Assembly: GCA_029553375.1 (NCBI GenBank)
Contig: JAKPCH010000022.1
Location: 1-49,561, forward strand
Reading direction: 5' to 3'
Source: Deltaproteobacteria bacterium
GTDB taxonomy: Bacteria > Desulfobacterota > Syntrophia > Syntrophales > UBA8958
DNA length: 49,561 nucleotides
In this document: piece after piece, positions 1-41,509 of the stretch
How the letters are laid out: each line of letters begins with the position of its first letter
How positions within the stretch are numbered: the first letter of the stretch is position 1
Translations under genes and position numbers: made by a program
Notes under the pieces: generated by a model
Told to the model about the DNA's origin: nothing
What the model saw: the letters and a program-made list of their open reading frames with translations, nothing else
Databases searched by the model: none

Positions 1-176
1 AAGCAGCGGGGGCAGAAGCTCCGGGCGGGCACGAGGACCCGGGAGCACTTGGGGCAGCGGGTTCCGTATATCTTCTTCTCCTTGAGCCCCTCGAAGAAGC
101 GGGTCCACGTGGCACCGTAGGCCAGCTCGTAGGGAAGATGAATCTCCGTTTTCAGGGTTCTGTATTCTTTCGACAT
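1..176 (-). CDS. DUF35 (ChsH2/BbsA-like) zinc-ribbon OB-fold protein, C-terminus missing
   Basis: The reading frame starts with ATG at 176 and runs off the left edge, so only the first 58 or so residues are present. They show an N-terminal helix region (YELAYGATWTRFFEGLK) followed by a rubredoxin-like zinc knuckle, GTRCPKCSRV then FCPRC. This is how DUF35 proteins begin: a helical hairpin, a CxxC-x(n)-CxxC ribbon, then an OB fold that would lie outside the window. DUF35 proteins are non-catalytic or acyl-CoA-binding partners of thiolase-fold enzymes and MaoC hydratases (ChsH2 with Ltp2, BbsA with BbsB). It is the last visible gene of the leftward operon and begins 20 nt after the thiolase stop. 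Family assignment is confident; the partner is inferred from position. Confidence 0.85.
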   Translation of the reverse strand, partial: MSKEYRTLKTEIHLPYELAYGATWTRFFEGLKEKKIYGTRCPKCSRVLVPARSFCPRC

Positions 177-196
177 GGTCATTCCTCCTCGTTTCT

Positions 197-1363
197 TTAG
201 AGATTGGATCCCAGGATCATGATCCCGTTGAACTGGTCCACCCCCCCCATGGCGTGGGCGAGGGCCAGCTTGGCCCCCGGGATCTGGTGGTCACCCGCCC
301 TGCCCGTCACCTGCATCGCCGCCTCGGCCACCCGGATAAGGCCCGTGGCGCCGATGGGGTTCGTGCAGAGGACGCCGCCGGAGGGGTCGCAGGGGAGCTC
401 GCCCCGGCGGGTGAAGGTGCCTTTCAAGACGAGGTCCGGGGAGGTGCCGAAATCGCAGAACCCGAAGCACTCGTAGAAGAGCATCTCCTGGTAGGTGAAG
501 GGGTTGTAGACCTCGGCCACATCGAGCTCCTTCCTGGGGTCCTTGATGCCCGCCTGGTCGTAGGCCTGGCGGGCGGCCTGGATGGCGCTTTCCCAGACTA
601 CCTTGTCGCTGTCCCCGAAGAAGTACTCCTCGCCCCGGTATCCGACGCCCTTTACCCAGGCCGCCTTGCGGCCGATCCTCTTGGCCGCCTCCTCGGAGGC
701 GAAGATGACGGCGCAGGCGCCGTCGGAATTGGGGCAGACGTCCAGGAGACGGATGGGATAGGTGATGACCCGGGCGTTTTTCACGTCGTCCATGGAGACC
801 TTCACCTTCACGTGGGCGTATGGGTTGTCGAAGGCGTCGTCGTGGTGGGTGACGGAAACAAAGGCCGCCGCGTCGCGGATCTTCTCCTCGGAGATACCGT
901 AACGTGCCGTCCACATCTGGGACTGCATGGAAAAGACGCCGGGGGCGCCGGAGATGAAATAACGCTGATAGAAAGGTTCGGCGACGGTGGTCATGGTCGC
1001 CTGACTGTTCCCCTCGTTCATCTTCTCGTGACCGACGGCGAGGACGATGTCGGCCAGGCCCGAAGAGACCCAGTAGAAGGCCGTGTGGGCGATGGAAACC
1101 CCCGTGGAACCGCACGTCTCCGTCTTCAGGATGGGTTTGCCCACGGCCTGCATGGCCTCGGCGAAATAGAAGTGTGTCAGGGCGATCCCCTCCATCATGG
1201 AGGGCATGGTCCCCGAGACGACCCCGTCGATATCCTCCGGGGAAAGCCCCGTGTCTTCAAATACGCGGACGACGGCCTCCCGGACGAGATCGGGGTAGGA
1301 AACGTCCATCCTCCTGCCGTGATGCGTCTGACCGACGCCGATTATTGCCACTGCTCTACCCAT
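197..1363 (-). CDS. Thiolase-family protein (SCP2-type), retains the nucleophilic cysteine
   Basis: 388 residues. An upstream in-frame extension exists, but ATG at 1363 has a clean GGAGG site 8 nt away and gives the family N-terminus GRAVAIIGVGQT. The fold is that of SCP2/lipid-transfer thiolases. Cys84 lies in ETCGSTG at the position of the acyl-accepting cysteine. NEAF is replaced by YNPFTYQE, GHP by NPIGATG, and the C-terminal CxGGG by HAMGGVDQFNG, so the second catalytic cysteine is absent. Such proteins are usually thiolases for unusual or branched 3-ketoacyl-CoA, or lipid-transfer-like partners, and often need a DUF35 subunit, which is encoded immediately downstream. It follows a second thiolase-fold gene by 10 nt. 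Likely cytoplasmic, acting in CoA-thioester degradation; the substrate is unknown. Confidence 0.85.
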   Translation of the reverse strand: MGRAVAIIGVGQTHHGRRMDVSYPDLVREAVVRVFEDTGLSPEDIDGVVSGTMPSMMEGIALTHFYFAEAMQAVGKPILKTETCGSTGVSIAHTAFYWVSSGLADIVLAVGHEKMNEGNSQATMTTVAEPFYQRYFISGAPGVFSMQSQMWTARYGISEEKIRDAAAFVSVTHHDDAFDNPYAHVKVKVSMDDVKNARVITYPIRLLDVCPNSDGACAVIFASEEAAKRIGRKAAWVKGVGYRGEEYFFGDSDKVVWESAIQAARQAYDQAGIKDPRKELDVAEVYNPFTYQEMLFYECFGFCDFGTSPDLVLKGTFTRRGELPCDPSGGVLCTNPIGATGLIRVAEAAMQVTGRAGDHQIPGAKLALAHAMGGVDQFNGIMILGSNL

Positions 1364-1373
1364 AATCCACCTC

Positions 1374-2516
1374 CTAACTTCCCAAGATCGCAACGGCGTG
1401 GCACTGGCCGGCAAAACCGTGGACTCCGTGGGCCAGAGCGGTCTTGACCTGTTTCGGGACCTGGTGCTCCCCCGCCTCGCCCCGGATCTGGAGGAACGCC
1501 TCCACGGCCCGCTGGAGACCCCTCGAGACGTAGGGGTTGTTCGCCAGGACTCCGCCCGAGGGATTGACGGGCAGCTCCCCGTCCCGGTCCGTGAAACCCC
1601 TGTCGATCAGCTTTCCCCCCTCGCCCTCGCCGCAGAAACCGAGGTTCTCGTACCAGAGAAGCTCCTGAAAGGCGTAGGGTTCCGTGATCTCCGCCAGGTC
1701 GATCTCCCGGGCGGGGTCCTTGATCCCCGCCATGTCGTAGGCCTTCTTGGCGGCCGCGGGGAGGCGGCTGTCGAGGAGATCCCGGTCACCGATCATGTAG
1801 GCGTCGAGGGCGGAGGCGAAACCCTTTATCCACACCGGTTTTTTCGTCATCTTCGTGGCCTTCTCCTCCGAGGCGAGGAGCATGGCCACCATCCCCTCCG
1901 ACTTGGGGGCGCACTGGAGGGCCGTGAGGGGATCCACGACGAGATCGGACCTTAGGACCTCCTCCACGCTGTAGCGTCCCCGGCGGTGGGCGTAGGGGTT
2001 GAGGAGGGCGTTGCCGAGGTTCTTGACGGCGACCTTGGCGCACTGCTCCTTTTCGATCCCGTATCTCTCCAGGTACTGTTTCATCTGGAAGGCGGCGGCC
2101 ATGGTCTCCGTCAGACCGAGGGGCCGCAAATAGAAGGGATCGGAATACATGAGGGTGCACGTTTCGTTGTCGGGGTTTTCCGACCCCTTGCACAGTCCGA
2201 TGACGAGGACGGTGTCGAAATGGCCCGTCATGATCCGCATGGCCCCGTACATGAGGGCGAAGAGGGACTCCCCGTCCTGGCGGGAGGCGTTCTTGAGGAA
2301 GGCCCCCGTCGGATCCCAATAGTAGGCGTTGGCGCAGGAGATGCCCCCGTGGTAGACGTCCGAGGAGGCGCTGACGACGCTCCCCAGCTCGTCCCTCGTT
2401 ATCCCCGCCTTGTCGAGGACCTCCTTCGTGACCCGGTAGGCCTGGTCGAAGAAGTTGTCCTTCGACTCGGCGCCCGCGCTCTGAGCGACGGATACGATTG
2501 CGACTTTTCTTGACAT
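1374..2516 (-). CDS. Thiolase-fold protein lacking the nucleophilic cysteine
   Basis: 380 residues, ATG at 2516 with GGAGAGG upstream. It is a paralogue of the neighbouring thiolase: same N-terminal RKVAIVSVAQS strand, same ITEPYAFQE block and same NPSGGVLANNP stretch. The segment that should hold the active-site cysteine reads LKNASRQDGESLFAL. By ungapped alignment to the neighbour, Gln80 (or Asp81) replaces the cysteine. The C-terminal motif is HGVHGFAGQCH rather than CxGGG. It may therefore be a structural half of a heteromeric thiolase, or an Ltp2-type retro-aldolase; those enzymes have the thiolase fold without thiolase cysteines and depend on a DUF35 partner. The sequence shows the fold and the missing residue; the aldolase idea is inference. 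Confidence 0.8.
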   Translation of the reverse strand: MSRKVAIVSVAQSAGAESKDNFFDQAYRVTKEVLDKAGITRDELGSVVSASSDVYHGGISCANAYYWDPTGAFLKNASRQDGESLFALMYGAMRIMTGHFDTVLVIGLCKGSENPDNETCTLMYSDPFYLRPLGLTETMAAAFQMKQYLERYGIEKEQCAKVAVKNLGNALLNPYAHRRGRYSVEEVLRSDLVVDPLTALQCAPKSEGMVAMLLASEEKATKMTKKPVWIKGFASALDAYMIGDRDLLDSRLPAAAKKAYDMAGIKDPAREIDLAEITEPYAFQELLWYENLGFCGEGEGGKLIDRGFTDRDGELPVNPSGGVLANNPYVSRGLQRAVEAFLQIRGEAGEHQVPKQVKTALAHGVHGFAGQCHAVAILGS

Positions 2517-2539: not shown

Positions 2540-2995
2540 TCAGGCGGGTCTGCGACCGGCGATGATCTTCGTCGTGAAGACGATCACCGTCTCCCCCCGC
2601 TGATTCTTGACGGCGTTGTGCGCCTCGATGATACCCCTCCCGCCGTCCTTCTCCTCCAGGCCGCAGATCGTCATCTCGCAGTGGATGGTGTCGCCGATCT
2701 TCACGGGGGCCGTGAAGCGGACACCCTCCATGCCGTAGAAGGCGATGAAGCTCTTGGGGAGGACGACGTGGGGCCCCAGCCTGAAGAGGAGGGCCATCCC
2801 CACGGTAAGACCCAGCATCCCGTGGGCGATCCGCTCCTTGAAAGGCGTCTTGGCGGCGTACTCGATGTTCGTGTGCAACTGGTGCCAGTCGCCCGTGAAG
2901 GCGGAAAAGAGCACGATATCCGTCTCCGTGATGGTCCTGCCCGGGGAGACGAAGACCTCGCCCACGCCGTAATCCTCGAAATAGTTCTTCTCCAT
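2540..2995 (-). CDS. MaoC-family (R)-enoyl-CoA hydratase
   Basis: 151 residues from ATG at 2995; a GTG two codons upstream is possible, but the AGGGGG site fits the ATG better. It is a single hot-dog domain. The hydratase-2 region reads FSAFTGDWHQLHTN, with the Asp and His expected to activate water, then the central-helix motif IAHGMLGLTVGMAL. The length matches single-domain MaoC proteins, which act as homodimers. It should hydrate a 2-enoyl-CoA, presumably the product of the acyl-CoA dehydrogenase encoded 10 nt upstream, and hand it to the thiolase-fold proteins downstream. No dehydrogenase for the resulting 3-hydroxyacyl-CoA is visible in the operon. That fits retro-aldol cleavage of the hydrated product, or a dehydrogenase encoded elsewhere. 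Confidence 0.88.
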   Translation of the reverse strand: MEKNYFEDYGVGEVFVSPGRTITETDIVLFSAFTGDWHQLHTNIEYAAKTPFKERIAHGMLGLTVGMALLFRLGPHVVLPKSFIAFYGMEGVRFTAPVKIGDTIHCEMTICGLEEKDGGRGIIEAHNAVKNQRGETVIVFTTKIIAGRRPA

Positions 2996-3005
2996 GATCA
3001 CCCCC

Positions 3006-4166
3006 CTATATCTTGAAGATCTCCCTGGCCACGATCAGGCGGCGCATCTCGGATGTCCCGGCGCCGATGGTCCCCAACCTCGCGTCCCGCCAATAACGCT
3101 GGACGGGATACTCGAGGCAGTAGCCGTAACCGCCGTGGATCTGCACCGCCTCGTCGCAGATGCGACAGGCCGCCTCCGCCGCGAAGAGGATGGCCGAGGC
3201 GGCGATCTTGTGGACCTCCGTCCCCTTGCCGCCGCCCTTCGCCCTCTCGGCCAGCACGGCGGCTTTGTAGCACATGAGGCGCGAGGCCTCGATGAGGGTA
3301 TACATGTCGGCGACCTTCTGCTGGATGAGCTGGAAGGCGGCGATGGGTTTACCGAATTGGACCCTCTCCCGGGCGTATTTCACCGAGGCCTCGAAGGCGG
3401 CCTCGGCGATGCCGAGGGCGTAGGTGGCGAAAAAGGCCCTCTCCACGTCGAGGCCGCCCATCATCACGGCGATCCCGCCGTTCTCCTTGCCGATGACGTT
3501 CTCCGCCGGGATGATGCAGTCCTCCAGGACGAGCTCGCCCGTCATGGAGCCACGGTTACCCACCTTCTCCAGCTTCCGGGAGACGGAAAACCCCGGGAAC
3601 ATCGTGTCGAGGATGAAGGCCGTGATCCCCCGGGGACCCAGGTTCTTGTCCGTCTTGGCGTAAAGGACGATGGTGTCGGCGATGGGACCGTTGGTGATAA
3701 AGGTCTTCCGGCCATTGACGACGTAGTGGTCCCCTTCCCTCCTGGCCGTCGTCTGGATGCTGACGGCGTCCGAACCGGCGCCGGGCTCCGTGAGACCGAG
3801 GGCTCCGATGTGCTCGCCCGAGCAGAGGGGGGGTAGATATTTCTTCTTCTGCTCGTGACTGGCGTGGCTGTTGAGGTTGTTGCAGCAGAGATTGGCGTGG
3901 GCCCCCCACGAGAGGGCCACGGCCGCCGAGGCCTTGGCCAGCTCCTCGCAGGCGAGGGACGCCGACAAGATGTCGGCCCCGGCACCGCCGTACTCCTGAT
4001 CCACCGTGATCCCCATGATCCCGAGGGAGGCCAGTTTCTCCCAGAGTCCCTCGGGCCATTCGTCTCTTTTGTCGATCTCCTCGGCGATGGGGGCGATCTC
4101 CTTCGCCGCGAAAGCGGCGACGGTCTCCTTGAAGATCCTGTGTTCCTCGCTCAGTTGAAAATCCAT
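3006..4166 (-). CDS. Acyl-CoA dehydrogenase with isovaleryl-CoA-dehydrogenase-type catalytic Glu
   Basis: 386 residues; ATG at 4166 is preceded by GGAGGAGG. The three acyl-CoA dehydrogenase domains are complete: N-terminal helices from MDFQLSEEHRIFKE, the beta domain with GLTEPGAGSDA and NGRKTFITNG, and the C-terminal helices with RERVQFGKPIAAFQ and QIHGGYGYCLEYPVQR. The base is usually Glu in YEGTSE near the C-terminus, but here that site reads IGAGTSE. Instead Glu is present in GGLDVER, the helix-G position used by isovaleryl-CoA dehydrogenase. This suggests a branched or bulky acyl-CoA substrate. FAD-dependent, cytoplasmic, electrons presumably to ETF. It is the first gene of the leftward operon, about 50 nt below a predicted sigma-54 start. 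Confidence 0.92.
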   Translation of the reverse strand: MDFQLSEEHRIFKETVAAFAAKEIAPIAEEIDKRDEWPEGLWEKLASLGIMGITVDQEYGGAGADILSASLACEELAKASAAVALSWGAHANLCCNNLNSHASHEQKKKYLPPLCSGEHIGALGLTEPGAGSDAVSIQTTARREGDHYVVNGRKTFITNGPIADTIVLYAKTDKNLGPRGITAFILDTMFPGFSVSRKLEKVGNRGSMTGELVLEDCIIPAENVIGKENGGIAVMMGGLDVERAFFATYALGIAEAAFEASVKYARERVQFGKPIAAFQLIQQKVADMYTLIEASRLMCYKAAVLAERAKGGGKGTEVHKIAASAILFAAEAACRICDEAVQIHGGYGYCLEYPVQRYWRDARLGTIGAGTSEMRRLIVAREIFKI

Positions 4167-4226: not shown

Positions 4227-4243
4227 CGCAATTTCGGTGCCAA
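4227..4243 (-). promoter_or_regulatory. Sigma-54 promoter of the acyl-CoA catabolic operon
   Basis: Read on the minus strand the sequence is TTGGCACCGAAATTGCG. It has the invariant GG (-24) and GC (-12) exactly 10 nt apart and almost the full TTGGCAC-N5-TTGC consensus. Transcription would start near 4216, leaving a leader of about 50 nt before the acyl-CoA dehydrogenase ATG. The adjacent gene encodes a sigma-54 activator. Confidence 0.85.
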
Positions 4244-4361: not shown

Positions 4362-4390
4362 TTGACTCCCCTGGGGGAGGGTGGTATCCG
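4362..4390 (+). promoter_or_regulatory. Possible sigma-70 promoter of the activator gene
   Basis: TTGACT at 4362-4367, a 17-bp spacer, then TATCCG at 4385-4390. The -35 is good and the -10 is weak. TTGTGA with TATCGA a little upstream, overlapping the palindrome, is an alternative. Confidence 0.35.
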
Positions 4391-4422
4391 AGGGGGGCCT
4401 ATCTTTTGGGAGGAGGTATGGG

Positions 4423-7400
4423 ATGGCGGTCAAAACGGCCAATCTCCAGCGTCTTTCGTCGGCGGAACGCTCGACCCTCTTTCGTTTCGCCGCTTTCCAG
4501 GACACATTCTCCATCGATTGGTTCGCCGACTTAAGGGAGGTGAAGCCCTCCCAGCTGGTCTGTGTCATTTCCTTCCTCGAGCGTCATCGCTGGGTCGCGC
4601 CGGTCAAGGAGGCAGACGGCCATTATCGCTGGACGAGGGCCTTTCCCCGGGAGGAGGTGGTCTCCCTCGTGCCGCCGGCGGAGATGACGGCCTATTATCG
4701 CCGGGCCGCGGAGATCCTCCAGAGGCACCTCCCGGAGACGGACGAGAATCTCCTCATGATCGCCCACACCTGTATCCTGGCGGGGATCGACGAGTCGGAC
4801 CGGGAGGTCATCCTGAAGGCGGCCCTCAGGGAGGAGGCCAATCACCGCATCGCCTCGGCCATTAGGCTCTACGACCACCTGTTGGCCTTCATGGAGAAAC
4901 TCGTGAGCCGGGACGAGGAGACGCCTTCACCCGAGACCTTCGGCACTTGGATGACGGCCCTCGAGCGGCGCGCCGCCCTCTCCCTCCTCCACCCCGATCT
5001 GAAACGGATCCACCCCTGGCTCACGGCGGCCCAAAAGACGGCCTCGCACCTGGGGGACGTCCGGGCGGAGGTTTCCTTGGAACTCCTCCTCGGCCAGAAC
5101 TGTTGGATGAGCTTCCAGTACGAACGGGCCGTCACCCACTTCGAGACGGCCTGGCGGATGATGGACACCGTCGACGACCCGGAGTTGCGCCGACGGGCCC
5201 TCCAGCTGCGGGGTCTCTCCTACCTCATACGGGGCGATCTCTCCCGGGCCGTTCAGGTCTACGAGGAATCCCTGGGGGAATTGGAAGAACGGGACGACGA
5301 CGACTTTTCCATGATCACGGCCCTCCATCTCTCCCAGTGCTATACCCAGCTCGGCATGCCCCAGCGGGCCCTGGGTATCTCGGAGAGCATCTACCACCAG
5401 GCCAAGAAAAACGAGAACTGGCCCCTCGTCTGCTTCTCCCTGGCCAATTCCGGTCTCATCCTCATCGAGATGATGCACTTGAAGGAGAGCCGGGCCTACT
5501 TCGAGGCGGCCATGGAGATCTGTCGGAAAGAGGCCACGCCAATGGCCGAGATCATCGCGGGCGTGGGCCTGGCGAACATCGAATGCCTGGAGGGGCGCTA
5601 CGACCGGGCGGCAAAACACTTCCAGGTCCTCTACCGGATCCGCAAGTCGAGCTGGTACCATACCCTAAATGCCTGCCACATCTTCGAGCCCGGCTTCATC
5701 CTCCACCGCCAGGGCGTCTCCCCCGTGGAACTCGACTCGGTGATCCGCTTCCTGAGCGAGTTCAGGGAAGAACAGCTCAATCCCCTCGTCTACGGGATCA
5801 TCCGGCGTCTGAAGATCCGCTACCTCGAGGAGAATGTGAAACCGGCGGACAAGATTAAGGAGCTCAAAACCATCGAGGCGTCCCTGGAAAAGACGGGGGC
5901 CCGCCTCGAGCTGGCCAAGGCGAGGATCGACCTGGCCAGGCTCTACCTCCAGACGAACCAGTGGTCCTTGGCGGAGGAGGCCGCCGGGAAGGCCTGGGAG
6001 TTCCTCAAGAGGACGGCCAAGGCGGCCTTCCCACCCGATCTGAAATCCCTCATCGACGGTGAGGAGGGCCGGGCGGAAGACCGGCTATACGAGGTCGTCA
6101 TCGAGATGGGGGAGGCCCTCATATCACAGAAGAACACGGAGCACATGCTCACCAACATCATCACCTCCATCTCCCGCCTCACGGGCGCCGAGCGGGCGGC
6201 CATCTTCATCCGGGACAAACGCTCCCCCGACTTCCGCATCGCCGCCTCGCGCAACTTCCCCCGGGACCACCTGACGGACCCGGAGTTCCGGGATATCCGG
6301 GAGATCATCCGTCTCGCCGTGACGGAAGGGGAGAGCAAGATCGTCCAACGGGAGTTGGACAAGACCGCCGACGGGGAGACGAGGAGGATCATCGTCACCC
6401 CCCTTGTCTTGGGGCGGCGCGTCACGGGCATCCTCTACCAGGACAGCCGTTTTTTCACCATCGATCTGGCCCCGGACCGTCTCCGCCTCCTCTCCGCCCT
6501 CGCCTCCCTCATCACCGTCTCCCTCGACCGGGCCCAGGCCTACGAAGAGATCGCCGGTCTCAACGCCCGTCTCCTTTCGGAATACCGACCCCCGCGGGAG
6601 GTTAACGAAGATCCCGGCCCCCTGGGCGAGATCATAGGCGCCAGCGAGGCCATGATCGATCTCAAGAATCTCATCCACAAGGTGGCGCCCACGAGGTCCA
6701 CGGTCCTCATCAAGGGCGAGACGGGGGTGGGTAAAGAGCTCATCGCCCGGGCCATCCACCGCGAAAGCGCCCGCCGGAACGGTCCTTTCATAAGGGTGAA
6801 CTGCGCGGCCCTCCCCGAGACCCTCATCGACAGCGAGCTCTTCGGACACGAGAAGGGTTCCTTCACGGGGGCCGTGCGTACGAAACCGGGTCGGTTCGAG
6901 CTGGCCGACAAGGGTACCATCTTCCTCGACGAGGTCTCGGAACTGCCCCCGGCGACACAGAGCCGCCTGTTGAGGATCCTCCAGGAGAAGGAGTTCCAGC
7001 GTGTCGGCGGGACGAAGACCCTCTATTCCGATTTCCGCCTCATCGCCGCCACCAACAAGGACCTCGAGGGGGAGATAGCCGCGGGGCGCTACCGGGCCGA
7101 CCTCTATTTCCGCCTCAACGTCTTCCCCCTCCGTGTCCCTCCCCTCAGGGAGAGGAGAGAGGACATACCCCTTTTGGCGGGTCATTTCCTCGAACACTTC
7201 TGCGCCCAGTACCAGAGTCCCCGCATGGTTATACCGCCGGCGGTGATGGAGAGGCTCGTCTCCTACGCCTGGCCGGGCAATGTGCGGGAACTCGCCAACG
7301 TCATCGAGAGGGCCGTCATCATGGGCGACCCCGACATCCGCCTCCCCGACAACCTCGCCGAGGCCGTCTCCTTCGTCGCAGAGACGACGCCCCTCCCCCT

Positions 7401-7569
7401 GAAGGAGCTCGAGAAGAGGCACATCCTCAATACCCTGAGGTTGACGCGGGGCAAGATCGGGGGACCCGCGGGGGCCTCGGCCCTCCTCGGCCTCAAGCGG
7501 ACGACTCTCATCCACCGCATGAAACGCCTGGGGATCTCCGTCCAGCGCGACGCCGCCTGCGAGACCTGA
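4423..7569 (+). CDS. Sigma-54-dependent activator: winged-helix/TPR sensor, GAF, AAA+, Fis HTH
   Basis: 1048 residues from ATG at 4423, placed 6 nt after AGGAGG. Residues 1-100 (SSAERSTLFRFAAFQDTFS...) resemble the winged-helix segment that follows the NTPase in STAND regulators such as MalT, but no NTPase precedes it. Residues ~110-560 are TPR-like helical repeats. A GAF domain spans ~563-710 (GAERAAIFIRDKRSPDF). The AAA+ domain has Walker A GETGVGK (765-771), sigma-54 loop GSFTGA (812-817, a serine variant of GAFTGA), and Walker B GTIFLDE (831-837). A Fis-type HTH ends the protein (LKRTTLIHRMKRLGI). It would drive open-complex formation at sigma-54 promoters. Two such promoters with a shared palindrome flank the gene, so it probably controls both neighbouring metabolic units. 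The inducer is unknown. Confidence 0.93.
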   Translation: MAVKTANLQRLSSAERSTLFRFAAFQDTFSIDWFADLREVKPSQLVCVISFLERHRWVAPVKEADGHYRWTRAFPREEVVSLVPPAEMTAYYRRAAEILQRHLPETDENLLMIAHTCILAGIDESDREVILKAALREEANHRIASAIRLYDHLLAFMEKLVSRDEETPSPETFGTWMTALERRAALSLLHPDLKRIHPWLTAAQKTASHLGDVRAEVSLELLLGQNCWMSFQYERAVTHFETAWRMMDTVDDPELRRRALQLRGLSYLIRGDLSRAVQVYEESLGELEERDDDDFSMITALHLSQCYTQLGMPQRALGISESIYHQAKKNENWPLVCFSLANSGLILIEMMHLKESRAYFEAAMEICRKEATPMAEIIAGVGLANIECLEGRYDRAAKHFQVLYRIRKSSWYHTLNACHIFEPGFILHRQGVSPVELDSVIRFLSEFREEQLNPLVYGIIRRLKIRYLEENVKPADKIKELKTIEASLEKTGARLELAKARIDLARLYLQTNQWSLAEEAAGKAWEFLKRTAKAAFPPDLKSLIDGEEGRAEDRLYEVVIEMGEALISQKNTEHMLTNIITSISRLTGAERAAIFIRDKRSPDFRIAASRNFPRDHLTDPEFRDIREIIRLAVTEGESKIVQRELDKTADGETRRIIVTPLVLGRRVTGILYQDSRFFTIDLAPDRLRLLSALASLITVSLDRAQAYEEIAGLNARLLSEYRPPREVNEDPGPLGEIIGASEAMIDLKNLIHKVAPTRSTVLIKGETGVGKELIARAIHRESARRNGPFIRVNCAALPETLIDSELFGHEKGSFTGAVRTKPGRFELADKGTIFLDEVSELPPATQSRLLRILQEKEFQRVGGTKTLYSDFRLIAATNKDLEGEIAAGRYRADLYFRLNVFPLRVPPLRERREDIPLLAGHFLEHFCAQYQSPRMVIPPAVMERLVSYAWPGNVRELANVIERAVIMGDPDIRLPDNLAEAVSFVAETTPLPLKELEKRHILNTLRLTRGKIGGPAGASALLGLKRTTLIHRMKRLGISVQRDAACET

Positions 7570-7604: not shown

Positions 7605-7673
7605 TCGTCCTTATAACATCGTCAAGGCGATCAATCGCCGGGGCAAGAGGGGCGGAGATATTCGACAAAGAGG

Positions 7674-7690
7674 TTGGCATCTTTTCTGCA
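7674..7690 (+). promoter_or_regulatory. Sigma-54 promoter of the AbfD-like gene
   Basis: TTGGCATCTTTTCTGCA has GG and GC separated by exactly 10 nt; TGGCAT and CTGC each depart from consensus by one base. Predicted start is near 7701, about 70 nt before the ATG at 7770. Confidence 0.75.
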
Positions 7691-7769
7691 CATATTGGTC
7701 CCTGATAAACCGCCGATGCCGTCGTCTCGAAACGTAGCGGCGAAGGGGTAAACAGAGGAGGAAGTGACA

Positions 7770-9236
7770 ATGGACGGAAGGGGTTATGTAGAGTCCCTGG
7801 GCCGGATGAAGACTATCGTCTACATCGACGGCGAAACCGTCGTCGATTACTGGGACCACCCCGCCCTGAGACCGGCGGTGAACGCCCTGGCGGCGACTTA
7901 CGACCTGGCCGCCCGGCCGGACCTCGACAAAGAGATCCATGACCTCATCCTCTCAGATAGTCACCTTACGGGCGGGAAGATCAATCGTTTCCTCCACATC
8001 GTCCTCTCCCGAGAGGATCTTTTAGCCCGCATGAGGCTCCAGCGGGCCATGATGCGCTACACGGGCGGTTGCTTCGGCGGCCGGTGCGTCGCCGGGGCGG
8101 TGATCAACGCCCTGTGGTCCGTCACCTACGAGGTGGACCGGGCCTCGGGGGGGCGAACGGAGTACCACCGCCGCTTCGCCGATTACATGAAAATGTGCCA
8201 GGAGAGGGACCTGGCCGTCTCGGGCAACATCACCGACGCCAAGGGAGACCGTTCGCGACCTCCCCACGCCCAGGCCGACCCGGATCTCTTCTTACGCGTC
8301 GTGGAGCGCCGCCGGGACGGGATCGTTGTTAACGGCGCCAAGCTCCAGCAGTCCGGCGCCCCCATGGCCCACGAACGCCTCGTGGTCCCTACGACCGCCC
8401 TGGGTCCCCGGGACGAGGACTACGCCGTGGCCTTCGCCGTCCCGGGCGACGCCGAGGGGGTGATTCACGTCAACGATTCGGCTTGCAGTAACGCCAAGTT
8501 CACCGCCATGGAACCCCAAGACATCGGCAACGTTACCTACGGCATGCACCAGAGCGCCCACGTCATCTTCGACCACGTCTTCGTCCCCTGGGATAGGGTC
8601 TTCCTCTGCGGCGAGTGGCAGGCCACGAGGGACTTGGTCCACCGATTTTCCGACTTTCAGCGTTTCGCCTCCTCGGCCTGCCGTTGCGGCTATATCGACC
8701 TCTGCATGGGCACGGCCGCGGCGATGGCGGACTACAACGGCGTGGCCGGCAAATCCCACATCCAGGACAAGCTTATCGACATGAGCATCGACGCCGAAAC
8801 CCTTCAGGGCCTGGTGGCGGGTTCCGCCGCCCTGGCGTCCCCCACGCCCTCCGGCGTCTACCTCCCCGACTCCCTGACGGTGAACGCCGCCAAGCTATTC
8901 ATGAACGAGGCCATCCTGAAGGCGGGGCAGCGCCTCGCCGACGTCGGCGGCGGCATCCTCGTCACGAGGCCCAGCTCCCGGGACCTGAAGATCCCCAAGG
9001 TGGGCGAACTCCTGGCGAAGTATCACCAGGGCAGAGAGGGGGTGGACGTGGAGGACCGTCTCAAGATGGCGCGCCTCGCCGAGACCCTCTCGGGCCTCAG
9101 TGCGCCGACGACCATCCTCTCCGTCATCGCCGCGGGTCCCCCGGCGACGCAGCGCCTGAATTTCCGCCTCCTGACGGATTTCGCGGGTAAACGCCGGGCG
9201 GCGGAGCGTTTGGCGGGGATAACGAAGACTCCCTGA
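7770..9236 (+). CDS. 4-hydroxybutyryl-CoA dehydratase (AbfD)/HpaB-superfamily enzyme with altered Fe-S ligands
   Basis: 488 residues; ATG at 7770 is 8 nt after AGAGGAGGAA (a GTG at 7764 is too close). Similarity to AbfD runs full length: YEVD, DAKGDRSRPPHAQADPDLFLRVVE, DGIVVNGAK, VIFDHVFVPWDRVFLCGE and AAAMADYNG...SHIQDKLIDM. AbfD is a homotetrameric FAD and [4Fe-4S] enzyme that dehydrates 4-hydroxybutyryl-CoA and isomerises vinylacetyl-CoA. Its cluster is held by Cys99, Cys103, His292 and Cys299. Here Cys101 and Cys106 occur in CFGGRC (one residue wider), Gln297 replaces the His, Cys304 is kept and an extra Cys306 follows. The neighbour of the last ligand is Arg instead of Lys300. It is therefore probably a flavoprotein acting on a CoA thioester, but not a standard AbfD. 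AbfD comparisons are from memory. Confidence 0.85.
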   Translation: MDGRGYVESLGRMKTIVYIDGETVVDYWDHPALRPAVNALAATYDLAARPDLDKEIHDLILSDSHLTGGKINRFLHIVLSREDLLARMRLQRAMMRYTGGCFGGRCVAGAVINALWSVTYEVDRASGGRTEYHRRFADYMKMCQERDLAVSGNITDAKGDRSRPPHAQADPDLFLRVVERRRDGIVVNGAKLQQSGAPMAHERLVVPTTALGPRDEDYAVAFAVPGDAEGVIHVNDSACSNAKFTAMEPQDIGNVTYGMHQSAHVIFDHVFVPWDRVFLCGEWQATRDLVHRFSDFQRFASSACRCGYIDLCMGTAAAMADYNGVAGKSHIQDKLIDMSIDAETLQGLVAGSAALASPTPSGVYLPDSLTVNAAKLFMNEAILKAGQRLADVGGGILVTRPSSRDLKIPKVGELLAKYHQGREGVDVEDRLKMARLAETLSGLSAPTTILSVIAAGPPATQRLNFRLLTDFAGKRRAAERLAGITKTP

Positions 9237-22052: not shown

Positions 22053-22079
22053 ACTATAATATGCGGGCGTTTTTGTCAA
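22053..22079 (-). promoter_or_regulatory. Promoter of the tRNA-Gly/tRNA-Cys operon
   Basis: On the minus strand TTGACA (22074-22079) and TATAGT (22053-22058) with a 15-bp spacer. Predicted start is near 22046, about 14 nt before the mature tRNA-Gly 5' end. The -35 is perfect and the spacer short. Confidence 0.7.
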
Positions 22080-22096
22080 TAGAAAAAAGTCGCAAT

Positions 22097-22906
22097 TCAG
22101 CCTTGGCTACCGCCGGCGATGAGTCCCGCCAGTTCCACGACGGCGTCCATGTACTGGGTCATGCCGAGGGCGAAGATGTTGTTGTGGTTCGCCCCCTTGA
22201 TCTTGAGGAAGCGCTTCTCCTCGGCGCCGCTCGCCTCGTAGAGGGCCGCCCCCTCGGAACAGGCGATGATGTGGTCGAACTGGGCGTGGATGATCAAGGT
22301 CGGCTTCTTGAAGGAACGGATCTTCTCAGGGTGACGAAACAGATCCTCATCGGGCAGGGAAAGACCGCGGCTGTCGATCCCCAACAGGGAGAAGAGGGGT
22401 CCCACGTGGGCGAAGCCGCTCTCGATGATAAGGGCGTCACAGTAGGCGGGAAAACGGTGAACGATCTCCAGGGCCGGCGCCGACCCCAGGGATCTGCCCA
22501 TGACTATCAAGGGCCCCGTATAGCCTTCCGTGGCGAGCCACTCCCGGCAGAAGTCAAGAATGGGGCCGCAATCGGCCATCATCGCCGAGACGGTGGGTCT
22601 CCCCCCCGAACGCCCGTAACCCCGGTAATCCACGGGGAGGAAATTGAGTCCCCGGTCCATGAAAAAGGGGGCCAGGTCGTGATACTCCGAGGCGATTTCA
22701 CCGTTCCCGTGAAAGAAGAGGATCGTCGGGCGGTGAAGGGCCGAGGGGTGGAAGTAGGCCCCGAGCCTCACGTCTCCCTCCACCGGTATACTCAGGGGGA
22801 TGACCTTGCCGTTGGTCAGGGGGAGATTCCACTCGGGACGAGGGTAGAAGAGGCGCCCCAGGATCTCGGGGTGGTCGTAAGGGGTGTAGTCATGGTCACA
22901 ACTCAT
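22097..22906 (-). CDS. Alpha/beta hydrolase (BEM46/YqkD-like)
   Basis: 269 residues. Single alpha/beta-hydrolase domain: oxyanion strand ILFFHGNGEIASEY, VDYRGYGRSGGRP, nucleophile elbow GRSLGS, Asp in HAQFDHI and His near the C-terminus in KGANHNNIF. There is no signal peptide, so it is probably cytoplasmic. This branch (BEM46-like) has members with thioesterase or esterase activity, but the substrate cannot be read from sequence. It is the last gene of the long leftward operon, starting 11 nt after pgsA, and ends just before the tRNA promoter. Confidence 0.88.
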   Translation of the reverse strand: MSCDHDYTPYDHPEILGRLFYPRPEWNLPLTNGKVIPLSIPVEGDVRLGAYFHPSALHRPTILFFHGNGEIASEYHDLAPFFMDRGLNFLPVDYRGYGRSGGRPTVSAMMADCGPILDFCREWLATEGYTGPLIVMGRSLGSAPALEIVHRFPAYCDALIIESGFAHVGPLFSLLGIDSRGLSLPDEDLFRHPEKIRSFKKPTLIIHAQFDHIIACSEGAALYEASGAEEKRFLKIKGANHNNIFALGMTQYMDAVVELAGLIAGGSQG

Positions 22907-22917
22907 CTGGACGGTCT

Positions 22918-23526
22918 CTAGGACTCCTTTCTGACGATGATGCGGTAGAATTTGGCCAGGTAGTCGATACCTGAATAGATGCTGAGAAACAGGGCCAGGT
23001 AGAGAATCACCGTTCCCACGGCATGGGCGTCGGCCCCGAAGATGGGGTAGTGGATGATGAGGGCCGAGATGGCGAACACCTGGCAGAGGGTCTTCTGCTT
23101 GCCCAAACGGCTGGCGGGAATGGTAAAACCCTCCGCCTGGGCGATGCTGCGGATCCCGTCCACGACAAAATCCCTGATGACGATCAGGGCCACGACCCAG
23201 GCCTGGATGCGGCCGATGGGGATCATGAGGATCATGGCGGTGTTGAGGACGAGCTTGTCCGCGATGGGGTCCAGGAACTTCCCCATGGTGGTGACGATCC
23301 GGTAGCGCCGGGCCACGTAACCGTCGAGGAGGTCCGTGAAGGAGACGAGGATGAAGGTGACGGCGATGACGAGGCTCCAGGTCTGACCGGGCGCCGCGAG
23401 AAGAAAGAATAGAACGGGAATGATGCTCAACCTCGCCAGGGTGATGACGTTGGGGAGGTTGAAGACCCTCCGTTGGGCCTGGTCGAGGGGAAGGGTGTCG
23501 AAGTACCGCTTCAGGATCTCTATCAT
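22918..23526 (-). CDS. pgsA: CDP-diacylglycerol--glycerol-3-phosphate 3-phosphatidyltransferase
   Basis: 202 residues from ATG at 23526, overlapping the end of the transaldolase gene region by short spacing (stop at 23534). The CDP-alcohol phosphotransferase signature is complete: DGYVARRYRIVTTMGKFLDPIAD, matching D-G-x2-A-R-x8-G-x3-D-x3-D. About five hydrophobic helices surround it, and FNLPNVITLARLSIIPVLFF is the typical PgsA N-terminal helix. It makes phosphatidylglycerophosphate at the inner membrane. No pgpA phosphatase gene is adjacent. The N-terminal 20 residues before NLPN are slightly longer than usual. Confidence 0.92.
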   Translation of the reverse strand: MIEILKRYFDTLPLDQAQRRVFNLPNVITLARLSIIPVLFFLLAAPGQTWSLVIAVTFILVSFTDLLDGYVARRYRIVTTMGKFLDPIADKLVLNTAMILMIPIGRIQAWVVALIVIRDFVVDGIRSIAQAEGFTIPASRLGKQKTLCQVFAISALIIHYPIFGADAHAVGTVILYLALFLSIYSGIDYLAKFYRIIVRKES

Positions 23527-40344: not shown

Positions 40345-40401
40345 ATGAACATCGTCCTTTTGCACCTCACCGCCCCCCTGCTACGCCGGTGCCTGAGGTG
40401 A
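40345..40401 (+). CDS. 18-residue leader peptide, apparently leaderless mRNA
   Basis: The frame encodes MNIVLLHLTAPLLRRCLR and a TGA stop. Six of 18 codons are Leu (CTT, TTG, CTC, CTG, CTA, CTG), with Ile, Val and three Arg; CTA and CTT are uncommon in this GC-rich DNA. No ribosome site precedes the ATG, and the promoter geometry puts transcription start on the ATG itself. The stop is about 20 nt before the first of three overlapping hairpins that end in a T-run. This is the design of an amino-acid-sensing attenuator in which ribosome stalling on the control codons selects the antiterminator. The sensed amino acid is likely leucine (or arginine); this is inference. Confidence 0.65.
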   Translation: MNIVLLHLTAPLLRRCLR

Positions 40402-40421
40402 GAACCCGTCCTTTTCCGACC

Positions 40422-40467
40422 CGCCGCCCCGGGCGGCGCAGGCGCCCTCCCGTGAGGGGGCGTTTTT
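40422..40467 (+). promoter_or_regulatory. Transcription attenuator: hairpin, antiterminator and intrinsic terminator
   Basis: Segment 1 (CGCCGC, 40422-40427) pairs with segment 2 (GCGGCG, 40433-40438). Segment 2 (GGGCG, 40431-40435) can instead pair with segment 3 (CGCCC, 40443-40447). Segment 3 pairs with segment 4 (GGGCG, 40458-40462), which is followed at once by TTTTT (40463-40467). The 1:2 and 2:3 pairings exclude each other, as do 2:3 and 3:4, giving the classic switch. It precedes the EamA gene by about 165 nt. Confidence 0.72.
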
Positions 40468-40630
40468 CTCCCCTGGCGTTTTTTACCGTGCAGGTCCCGC
40501 GATCCATCCTCCAGGAGGGGCCGACACGGCGGGGGGGCTTTACGGGGATGATGGCCACGGCGGTCGCGGTTTCCTTTGGGCCTGTCAAACCCTGCCCGGA
40601 GAAGGTGGCCGCGGCTGATCCCTGGGGGGT

Positions 40631-41509
40631 GTGACCTTGTTGTGGCTGGTCCTCTCCGTCCTCTCCGCCTTTTTCCTGGCGACGGCCGACGCCTTGACCA
40701 AAAGGTTCTTCTCTCAGTATCCCGCCTACGTCATGGGCCTGGTCCGCCTCGGTTACGCCCTGCCGTGGTTTCTCGCCTCTTTCCTCTTCATTCCCCTGAC
40801 CGTCCCTACCCCGACCTTCTGGGTCGCCGTCGCCTGCGCCCTCCCCCTGGAGGTGGGCGCCTTCATCCTCTACATGCGGGCCATCAAGATCTCGCCCCTC
40901 TCCCTGACCCTGCCCTTCCTCTCCTTCACCCCCGTCTTCATCGTCTTCACGGGCTGGCTCTTCCTGGGCGAGAGGGTCAGCGGGGGCGCCGCCGCCGGCA
41001 TCGTCTGCATCGTCATCGGGACCTGGACCCTCCATTTCTCCAAGGGCCGCCAGGGGATCCTCGAGCCGTTCCGGGCCGTCATCCGGGAGCGGGGTTCTTT
41101 GCTGATGATCCTCGTCTCCCTCATCTACGCCGTCACGGCCCCCCTGGGCAAGCTCGCCATCATCAACTCCGACCCCCTTTTCTTCGGGGCCGTCTATTTC
41201 ACGATCCTCGCGGTCCTCTTGATCCTCCTCGCCCCCTTGACGGACGGGAAGAGGACCTTCAAGACCCTCAATTGGCGCAGCTTCCCGGCGGGCGAGGCCC
41301 TGGGTCTCTGCGTCTTTCTCTCGGCCCTCTGTCATTTCCAGGCCGTCGCGCTGACGAACGTGGCCCACATGATCGCCGTCAAGAGGATGAGCATCCTCTT
41401 CGGGGTCCTCTACGGCGCCTGGCTATTTCGGGAGGAGGAGATCGGCGAGCGTCTCGTCGGTTCCCTCATCATGATCGGCGGCGTTTTCCTCATCGCCCGT
41501 TACGCCTAA
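40631..41509 (+). CDS. EamA/DMT-family transporter under attenuator control
   Basis: 292 residues, GTG start after a G-rich ribosome site. Ten membrane helices in two EamA repeats: LLWLVLSVLSAFFLATADALTKRF, PLEVGAFILYMRAIKISPLSLTLPFLSFTPVFIVFTGWLFLGE, then ILVSLIYAVTAPLGKLAI, and AHMIAVKRMSILFGVLYGAWLFREEEIGERLVG. It is not close to the other EamA protein of this window. DMT proteins include exporters of threonine, homoserine, cysteine and other amino acids. The upstream leader peptide and attenuator suggest a role tied to amino-acid supply (leucine or branched-chain?), and a stalled ribosome would raise expression under starvation, which would favour uptake over export. Substrate unknown. 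Confidence 0.9.
   Translation: MTLLWLVLSVLSAFFLATADALTKRFFSQYPAYVMGLVRLGYALPWFLASFLFIPLTVPTPTFWVAVACALPLEVGAFILYMRAIKISPLSLTLPFLSFTPVFIVFTGWLFLGERVSGGAAAGIVCIVIGTWTLHFSKGRQGILEPFRAVIRERGSLLMILVSLIYAVTAPLGKLAIINSDPLFFGAVYFTILAVLLILLAPLTDGKRTFKTLNWRSFPAGEALGLCVFLSALCHFQAVALTNVAHMIAVKRMSILFGVLYGAWLFREEEIGERLVGSLIMIGGVFLIARYA

Follow-up and report, generated by a model that had tools for sequence, protein, structure and literature searches.

4-Hydroxybutyryl-CoA dehydratase (AbfD, 4HBD) contains FAD beside a [4Fe-4S] cluster, which is held by three cysteines and one histidine, and performs radical chemistry on an acyl-CoA. The histidine is regarded as both a cluster ligand and a part of the catalytic apparatus. 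Tyr296, Glu257, Glu455, Lys300 and Thr190 of AbfD presumably have catalytic roles as active-site residues. A proposal involving a flavin semiquinone and a ketyl radical has been summarized for AbfD (PMC13101534). According to another article, three cysteines plus a non-cysteine ligand are the arrangement of Lewis-acid dehydratases (PMC11138216). Aconitase and dihydroxyacid dehydratase, unrelated in fold and devoid of a flavin, allow a functional comparison only. They possess a three-cysteine cluster with the fourth site available for substrate or solvent. 4-Hydroxyphenylacetate 3-monooxygenase (HpaB) belongs to the PF11794/PF03241 superfamily and resembles the protein described here in fold (Z ~38), but lacks all three cysteines; the host lineage of the present protein is presumably anaerobic.

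The window, i.e. the whole analyzed stretch of 49,561 nucleotides, encodes an AbfD-like flavoenzyme with glutamine at the position of the cluster histidine, termed Q-AbfD (Table 1). The open reading frame of 488 codons extends from an ATG to a stop codon, with an in-frame GTG at 7764. Both halves of the HpaB superfamily were assigned by Pfam, PF11794 with 281 bits and PF03241 with 159 bits, far above the gathering cut-offs of 35 and 25 bits, respectively. Solved structures of 4HBDs were matched with E-values of 4e-106 (6vjr) and 5e-100 (1u8v), HpaB monooxygenase structures at 6e-38 or weaker. Identity to characterized 4-hydroxybutyryl-CoA dehydratases amounts to ~40%. An AlphaFold2 model (mean pLDDT 86.6, pTM 0.85) superimposed on 6vjr with Z 48.8 and an rmsd of 1.4 over 431 residues, on 1u8v with Z 48.1 and on HpaB entries with Z 38 at most. 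The HpaB equivalog cut-offs were not reached (HpaB-1, 165 of 480 bits; HpaB-2, 103 of 885 bits). By sequence, tree and predicted fold, the protein is a member of the AbfD family. The original prediction, namely homology to AbfD combined with changes at the cluster site, is supported by alignment, tree and fold. Its exclusion of an HpaB-type flavin monooxygenase also stands, in view of the missed cut-offs, the weaker fold match and the three retained cysteines. The genome additionally codes for an AbfD in which no ligand is missing (L001).

Table 1. Features of the Q-AbfD locus in window coordinates.
Feature	Position	Strand	Basis or remark
DUF35/ChsH2-type OB-fold protein, cut by window edge	3..290	-	79% identical to L006 protein over 58 aa
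Thiolase-like protein THL1	197..1414	-	domain search and neighbourhood comparison
Thiolase-like protein THL2	1374..2516	-	domain search and neighbourhood comparison
MaoC-type enoyl-CoA hydratase	2540..3001	-	domain search and neighbourhood comparison
Acyl-CoA dehydrogenase 1 (ACAD1)	3006..4166	-	domain search and neighbourhood comparison
Sigma-54 element TGGCACCGAAATTGC, upstream of divergent acyl-CoA operon	4228..4242	-	no mismatch
TPR-GAF sigma-54-dependent transcription activator	4381..7569	+	adjoins Q-AbfD in several relatives
Sigma-54-type -24/-12 element TGGCATCTTTTCTGC, upstream of Q-AbfD	7675..7689	+	2 mismatches
Q-AbfD, AbfD-like flavoenzyme with Gln at cluster-His position	7770..9236	+	488 aa; Pfam, alignment, tree, fold
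C101-F-G-G-R-C106, first two cluster Cys, CxxxxC versus CxxxC in AbfD	8070..8087	+	alignment
QQSGAP, Ser195 at AbfD Thr190 position	8346..8363	+	alignment
Q297-R-F-A-S301-S-A-C304-R305-C306, third cluster Cys and variable Cys306	8658..8687	+	alignment

Q-AbfD shares with AbfD the fold, the three cluster cysteines and the general flavin-domain architecture, but differs in active-site residues and in the gene neighbourhood. The reference alignment comprised Clostridium aminobutyricum AbfD (1u8v, its chain numbering), Nitrosopumilus maritimus 4HBD (6vjr) and ~30 further relatives. Cys99, Cys103 and Cys299 of AbfD correspond to C101, C106 and C304. One glycine (G103) is inserted between the first two and aligns to AbfD Gln101. 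The cluster ligand His292 is replaced by Q297, Tyr296 by S301, Lys300 by R305, Thr190 by S195, His188 by Gln193 and Glu455 by Leu450. Glu257 is lost, Gln261 or Ser262 taking its place depending on gap placement, and an extra cysteine is present at 306. Every residue named beforehand (C101, C106, S195, Q297, S301, C304, R305, C306) was reproduced by the alignment to AbfDs, and Gln297, not a histidine, occupies the ligand position.

In the AlphaFold2 model the inserted glycine is located in a coil between helices 81-98 and 105-125 and hence need not displace the cluster cysteines. Nevertheless, a one-residue insert could alter the cysteine geometry, which would speak against the cluster proposed below. 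Q297, S301 and C304 are placed in one long helix (283-323), the latter two at four and seven residues from Q297, which parallels the arrangement of His292, Tyr296 and Cys299 in AbfD. An additional role had been suggested for Cys306. This residue is alanine in L075 and serine in L077 among 13 orthologues and follows C304 by two residues in the same predicted helix, from which its side chain should face away from the cluster site. Cys306 was rejected as fourth cluster ligand on both grounds; it is not conserved and probably not a ligand.

Four orthologues, derived from metagenome-assembled genomes of Syntrophaceae and lineages related to them, show 75-81% identity to Q-AbfD and have every site change in common. 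A profile built on these orthologues and run on 155 genomes of the order recovered 13 members with 749-1066 bits; the next-best match reached 483 bits, leaving a clean gap below the Q-AbfD members. The C101/C106 spacing, S195, Q297, S301, C304, R305 and L450 are common to all 13 (the truncated orthologue L078 was scored only at positions it contains), which places the changes beyond chance. The G103 insert is invariant in these 13 and in eight members of a sister clade. Comparison of the window gene with its nearest orthologue yielded a dN/dS of 0.14, and values stayed below 0.21 in every unsaturated pair examined. Selection on Q-AbfD is purifying. A decaying paralogue without function is scarcely credible: the ACAD2 and BKACE neighbours (see below), kept in relatives, have been lost in the window, but the intact frame, the low dN/dS and the identical site residues of 13 orthologues already contradict decay. 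A search of 395 genomes of the phylum at E <= 1e-130 retrieved no Q-AbfD beyond two from the window's own family. Outside the order, the CxxxxC pattern was matched at DNA level in six genomes, none of the matches lying within an AbfD-like frame. Far from being an isolated oddity, Q-AbfD constitutes a conserved clade, and its operon is conserved as well.

The 13 Q-AbfD orthologues form one clade with a support of 100/100. The sister group (n=8) likewise has all three cluster cysteines, CxxxxC and the glutamine, but retains Lys300 and Glu455. The joint clade (support 98/96) is placed inside the AbfD family and adjoins canonical AbfD and a His-bearing Desulfobacterota type. Replacement of histidine by glutamine, the glycine insert, Thr190 to serine and three more substitutions occur in both Q-type groups and are absent from all His-bearing AbfDs compared. 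The window's genome harbors a second His-less gene of the AbfD family (L098:3055-4497; G000:C31, minus strand), coding for protein L003. Its group comprises 13 proteins in the order, 64-100% identical, with CxxC (FCSMC in L003), valine or glycine at the histidine position (valine in L003) and the third cysteine kept. The nearest relatives of this group, L124, L127 and L128, keep the histidine. A single shared origin of the two His-less groups was rejected, as forcing them together costs 85 log-likelihood units (AU test, p-AU 7e-5). Judging from the tree, the cluster histidine has therefore been lost at least twice, with the three cysteines retained. Genes of the L003 group and Q-AbfD co-occur in seven genomes versus 1.1 expected; counted per genus, the values are 5 versus 2.1 (p 0.02). 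A literature search yielded no description of these His-less clades, which is not proof of absence.

Relatives without one of the cluster cysteines are without all three, as observed for HpaB and a Binatia/Latescibacterota type (L025-L033). The earlier alternative of a cluster with different ligation or none is thereby narrowed: the balance tips towards a cluster, since Q-AbfD and the separate His-less L003 group keep the three cysteines missing from relatives that look cluster-less. A cluster-less flavoenzyme would hold the cysteines as a structural relic, while FAD alone would dehydrogenate, isomerize or hydroxylate, as in HpaB or acyl-CoA dehydrogenases. The lost ligand, the changed cysteine spacing and the existence of cluster-less relatives in the superfamily are compatible with such an enzyme. 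It is nevertheless improbable, because those relatives lack all three cysteines, the Q-AbfD clade maintains them under purifying selection and the HpaB score (165 bits) falls far below the cut-off (480 bits).

We infer, at a rough probability of 0.45, that Q-AbfD combines FAD with a three-cysteine [4Fe-4S] cluster, the fourth iron of which is open or weakly held, and catalyzes an elimination or isomerization, its substrate being a CoA thioester different from 4-hydroxybutyryl-CoA. Cys101, Cys106 and Cys304 would bind the cluster. In place of His292, Gln297 or water may weakly hold the fourth iron, or the site may be open, as is argued from the loss of the histidine. The putative open site would resemble that of aconitase and dihydroxyacid dehydratase. 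Next to the flavin, as in AbfD, the cluster would bind the substrate and activate it, acting as a Lewis acid, as a one-electron relay or as both, and FAD would handle the alpha and beta hydrogens of the acyl-CoA. The reaction would most likely be an elimination or a double-bond isomerization.

Retention of the cluster with a new protein ligand on the fourth iron is unlikely. Candidates are His260 in the loop GMHQSA, Cys239, Cys280 or Gln297 itself. All 21 Q-type members possess His260, the loop of which aligns beside AbfD Glu257, taken here to be an active-site residue. However, in canonical AbfDs of the order a histidine already occupies the position next to it (GGHEAL), and the gaps around His260 can be placed in more than one way, which weakens the case for a replacement ligand introduced by insertion. 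None of the 13 orthologues deviates at Cys239 or Cys280, but the former is missing from the sister clade and the latter is common in AbfDs already having His292. As for Gln297, a review gives histidine, asparagine, SAM and citrate as known non-cysteine cluster ligands, and glutamine is named neither in its passage on such ligands nor in that of PMC11138216.

An ordinary 4-hydroxybutyryl-CoA dehydratase tolerating the changes, or an enzyme limited to the vinylacetyl-CoA delta-isomerase half of the reaction, would have the same fold and the ~40% identity to characterized enzymes. In L074, a gene for an ADP-forming ligase divergent from Q-AbfD weakly resembles 4-hydroxybutyrate-CoA ligase (399 bits, cut-off 1300), which would suit this activity. 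Weighed against the replacement of His292, Tyr296, Glu257, Glu455 and Lys300 in every orthologue and the full-ligand AbfD of the same genome, the ordinary activity has poor prospects. A different CoA thioester is likely, because L001 is present beside Q-AbfD and the pocket residues differ. The different reaction originally suspected likewise appears likely, given these replacements, that of His188 and the presence of L001.

The proposed open-site enzyme would serve a sigma-54-controlled route of acyl-CoA degradation with acyl-CoA dehydrogenases, a MaoC hydratase, thiolase-like enzymes and the DUF35 partner; in relatives, the route would also include a beta-keto acid cleavage enzyme (BKACE). 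The usual gene order in relatives with enough flanking sequence is sigma-54 activator, acyl-CoA dehydrogenase 2 (ACAD2), Q-AbfD and BKACE, accompanied by a divergent operon of ACAD1, MaoC, two thiolase-like genes and the DUF35 protein. In the window, the divergent operon and the activator are kept, and adjacent ACAD2 and BKACE are absent. The genome encodes on another contig a BKACE 88% identical to that of the cluster; the ACAD2 relative reaches only 50%. ACAD2 orthologues were found in 11 of the 13 Q-AbfD genomes versus 24 of 155 overall (p 8e-9, uncorrected for relatedness). In genome G080 (L144:8335-10662), the cluster is the same except that BKACE and ACAD2 have no Q-AbfD between them. 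It represents a natural counterpart of the window, which has Q-AbfD and lacks ACAD2. The link of Q-AbfD to the acyl-CoA pathway is loose, because ACAD2 and BKACE are not adjacent in the window and the G080 cluster is without Q-AbfD.

Further genes in some relatives code for an OYE/BaiCD-type reductase, a NifS cysteine desulfurase and a CoA-transferase. In one genus, the BaiCD/OYE-type reductase and NifS follow BKACE (L071:1615-4790, L072:5027-8202, also L070:5496-8674). Three BKACE genes are present in the window's 2.4 Mb genome (G000:C35:14396, C50:25775, C92:30928), 68-88% identical to that of the cluster, and several relatives likewise hold two to four copies. BKACE scored 425.9 bits against the model for 3,5-dioxohexanoate (cut-off 430), the enzyme of which has been described (PMC10470551). 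Substrate assignment via BKACE was rejected, as the score lies just below the cut-off and copies also occur away from the cluster. Among the genes scanned at 18332-41368 (minus strand) of the window are an ABC transporter ATPase, a member of the leucyl aminopeptidase family, a diaminopimelate/ornithine-type decarboxylase, a class III aminotransferase, an AAA protease ATPase and a radical SAM/UPF0004 protein. The scanned frames 22061-22918 (plus strand) and 40370-41368 (minus strand) had no Pfam match at 1e-10.

The element TGGCACCGAAATTGC was equalled by none of 500 shuffles and is also present in L006 and L073. The score of TGGCATCTTTTCTGC was matched by 57 of 500 shuffles. Evidence for this site is therefore its cross-species identity, the ACAD2 gene of L006 being preceded by exactly the same 19 bases as those at 7672-7690. 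Owing to this identity, Q-AbfD of the window seems to be located now behind a former ACAD2 promoter region, loss of ACAD2 being the simplest reading. A genome-wide sigma-54 scan revealed no excess above chance, and only conserved positions count. The Q-AbfD gene is assigned by these elements and its neighbours to a predicted sigma-54-type acyl-CoA degradation cluster.

A wider proposal is tentative, with the odds rather against it. The histidine losses, two or more, would have given rise to three-cysteine, open-site [4Fe-4S]/FAD enzymes on an acyl-CoA-dehydrogenase-related fold, in which a Lewis-acid cluster and a flavin cooperate in an undescribed elimination or isomerization of syntrophic acyl-CoA degradation. 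That evolution has more than once discarded a ligand considered essential is surprising to specialists, even though the function is one that we infer. 4-Hydroxybutyryl-CoA dehydratase frequently serves to indicate carbon fixation or GABA metabolism; a blanket annotation of AbfD homologues under this name would be wrong for the His-less clades. The natural His-less, three-cysteine clades offer ready variants for probing whether the cluster acts in one-electron chemistry, in Lewis-acid activation or in structure, and they may mark an unassigned step in the acyl-CoA degradation of syntrophic bacteria.
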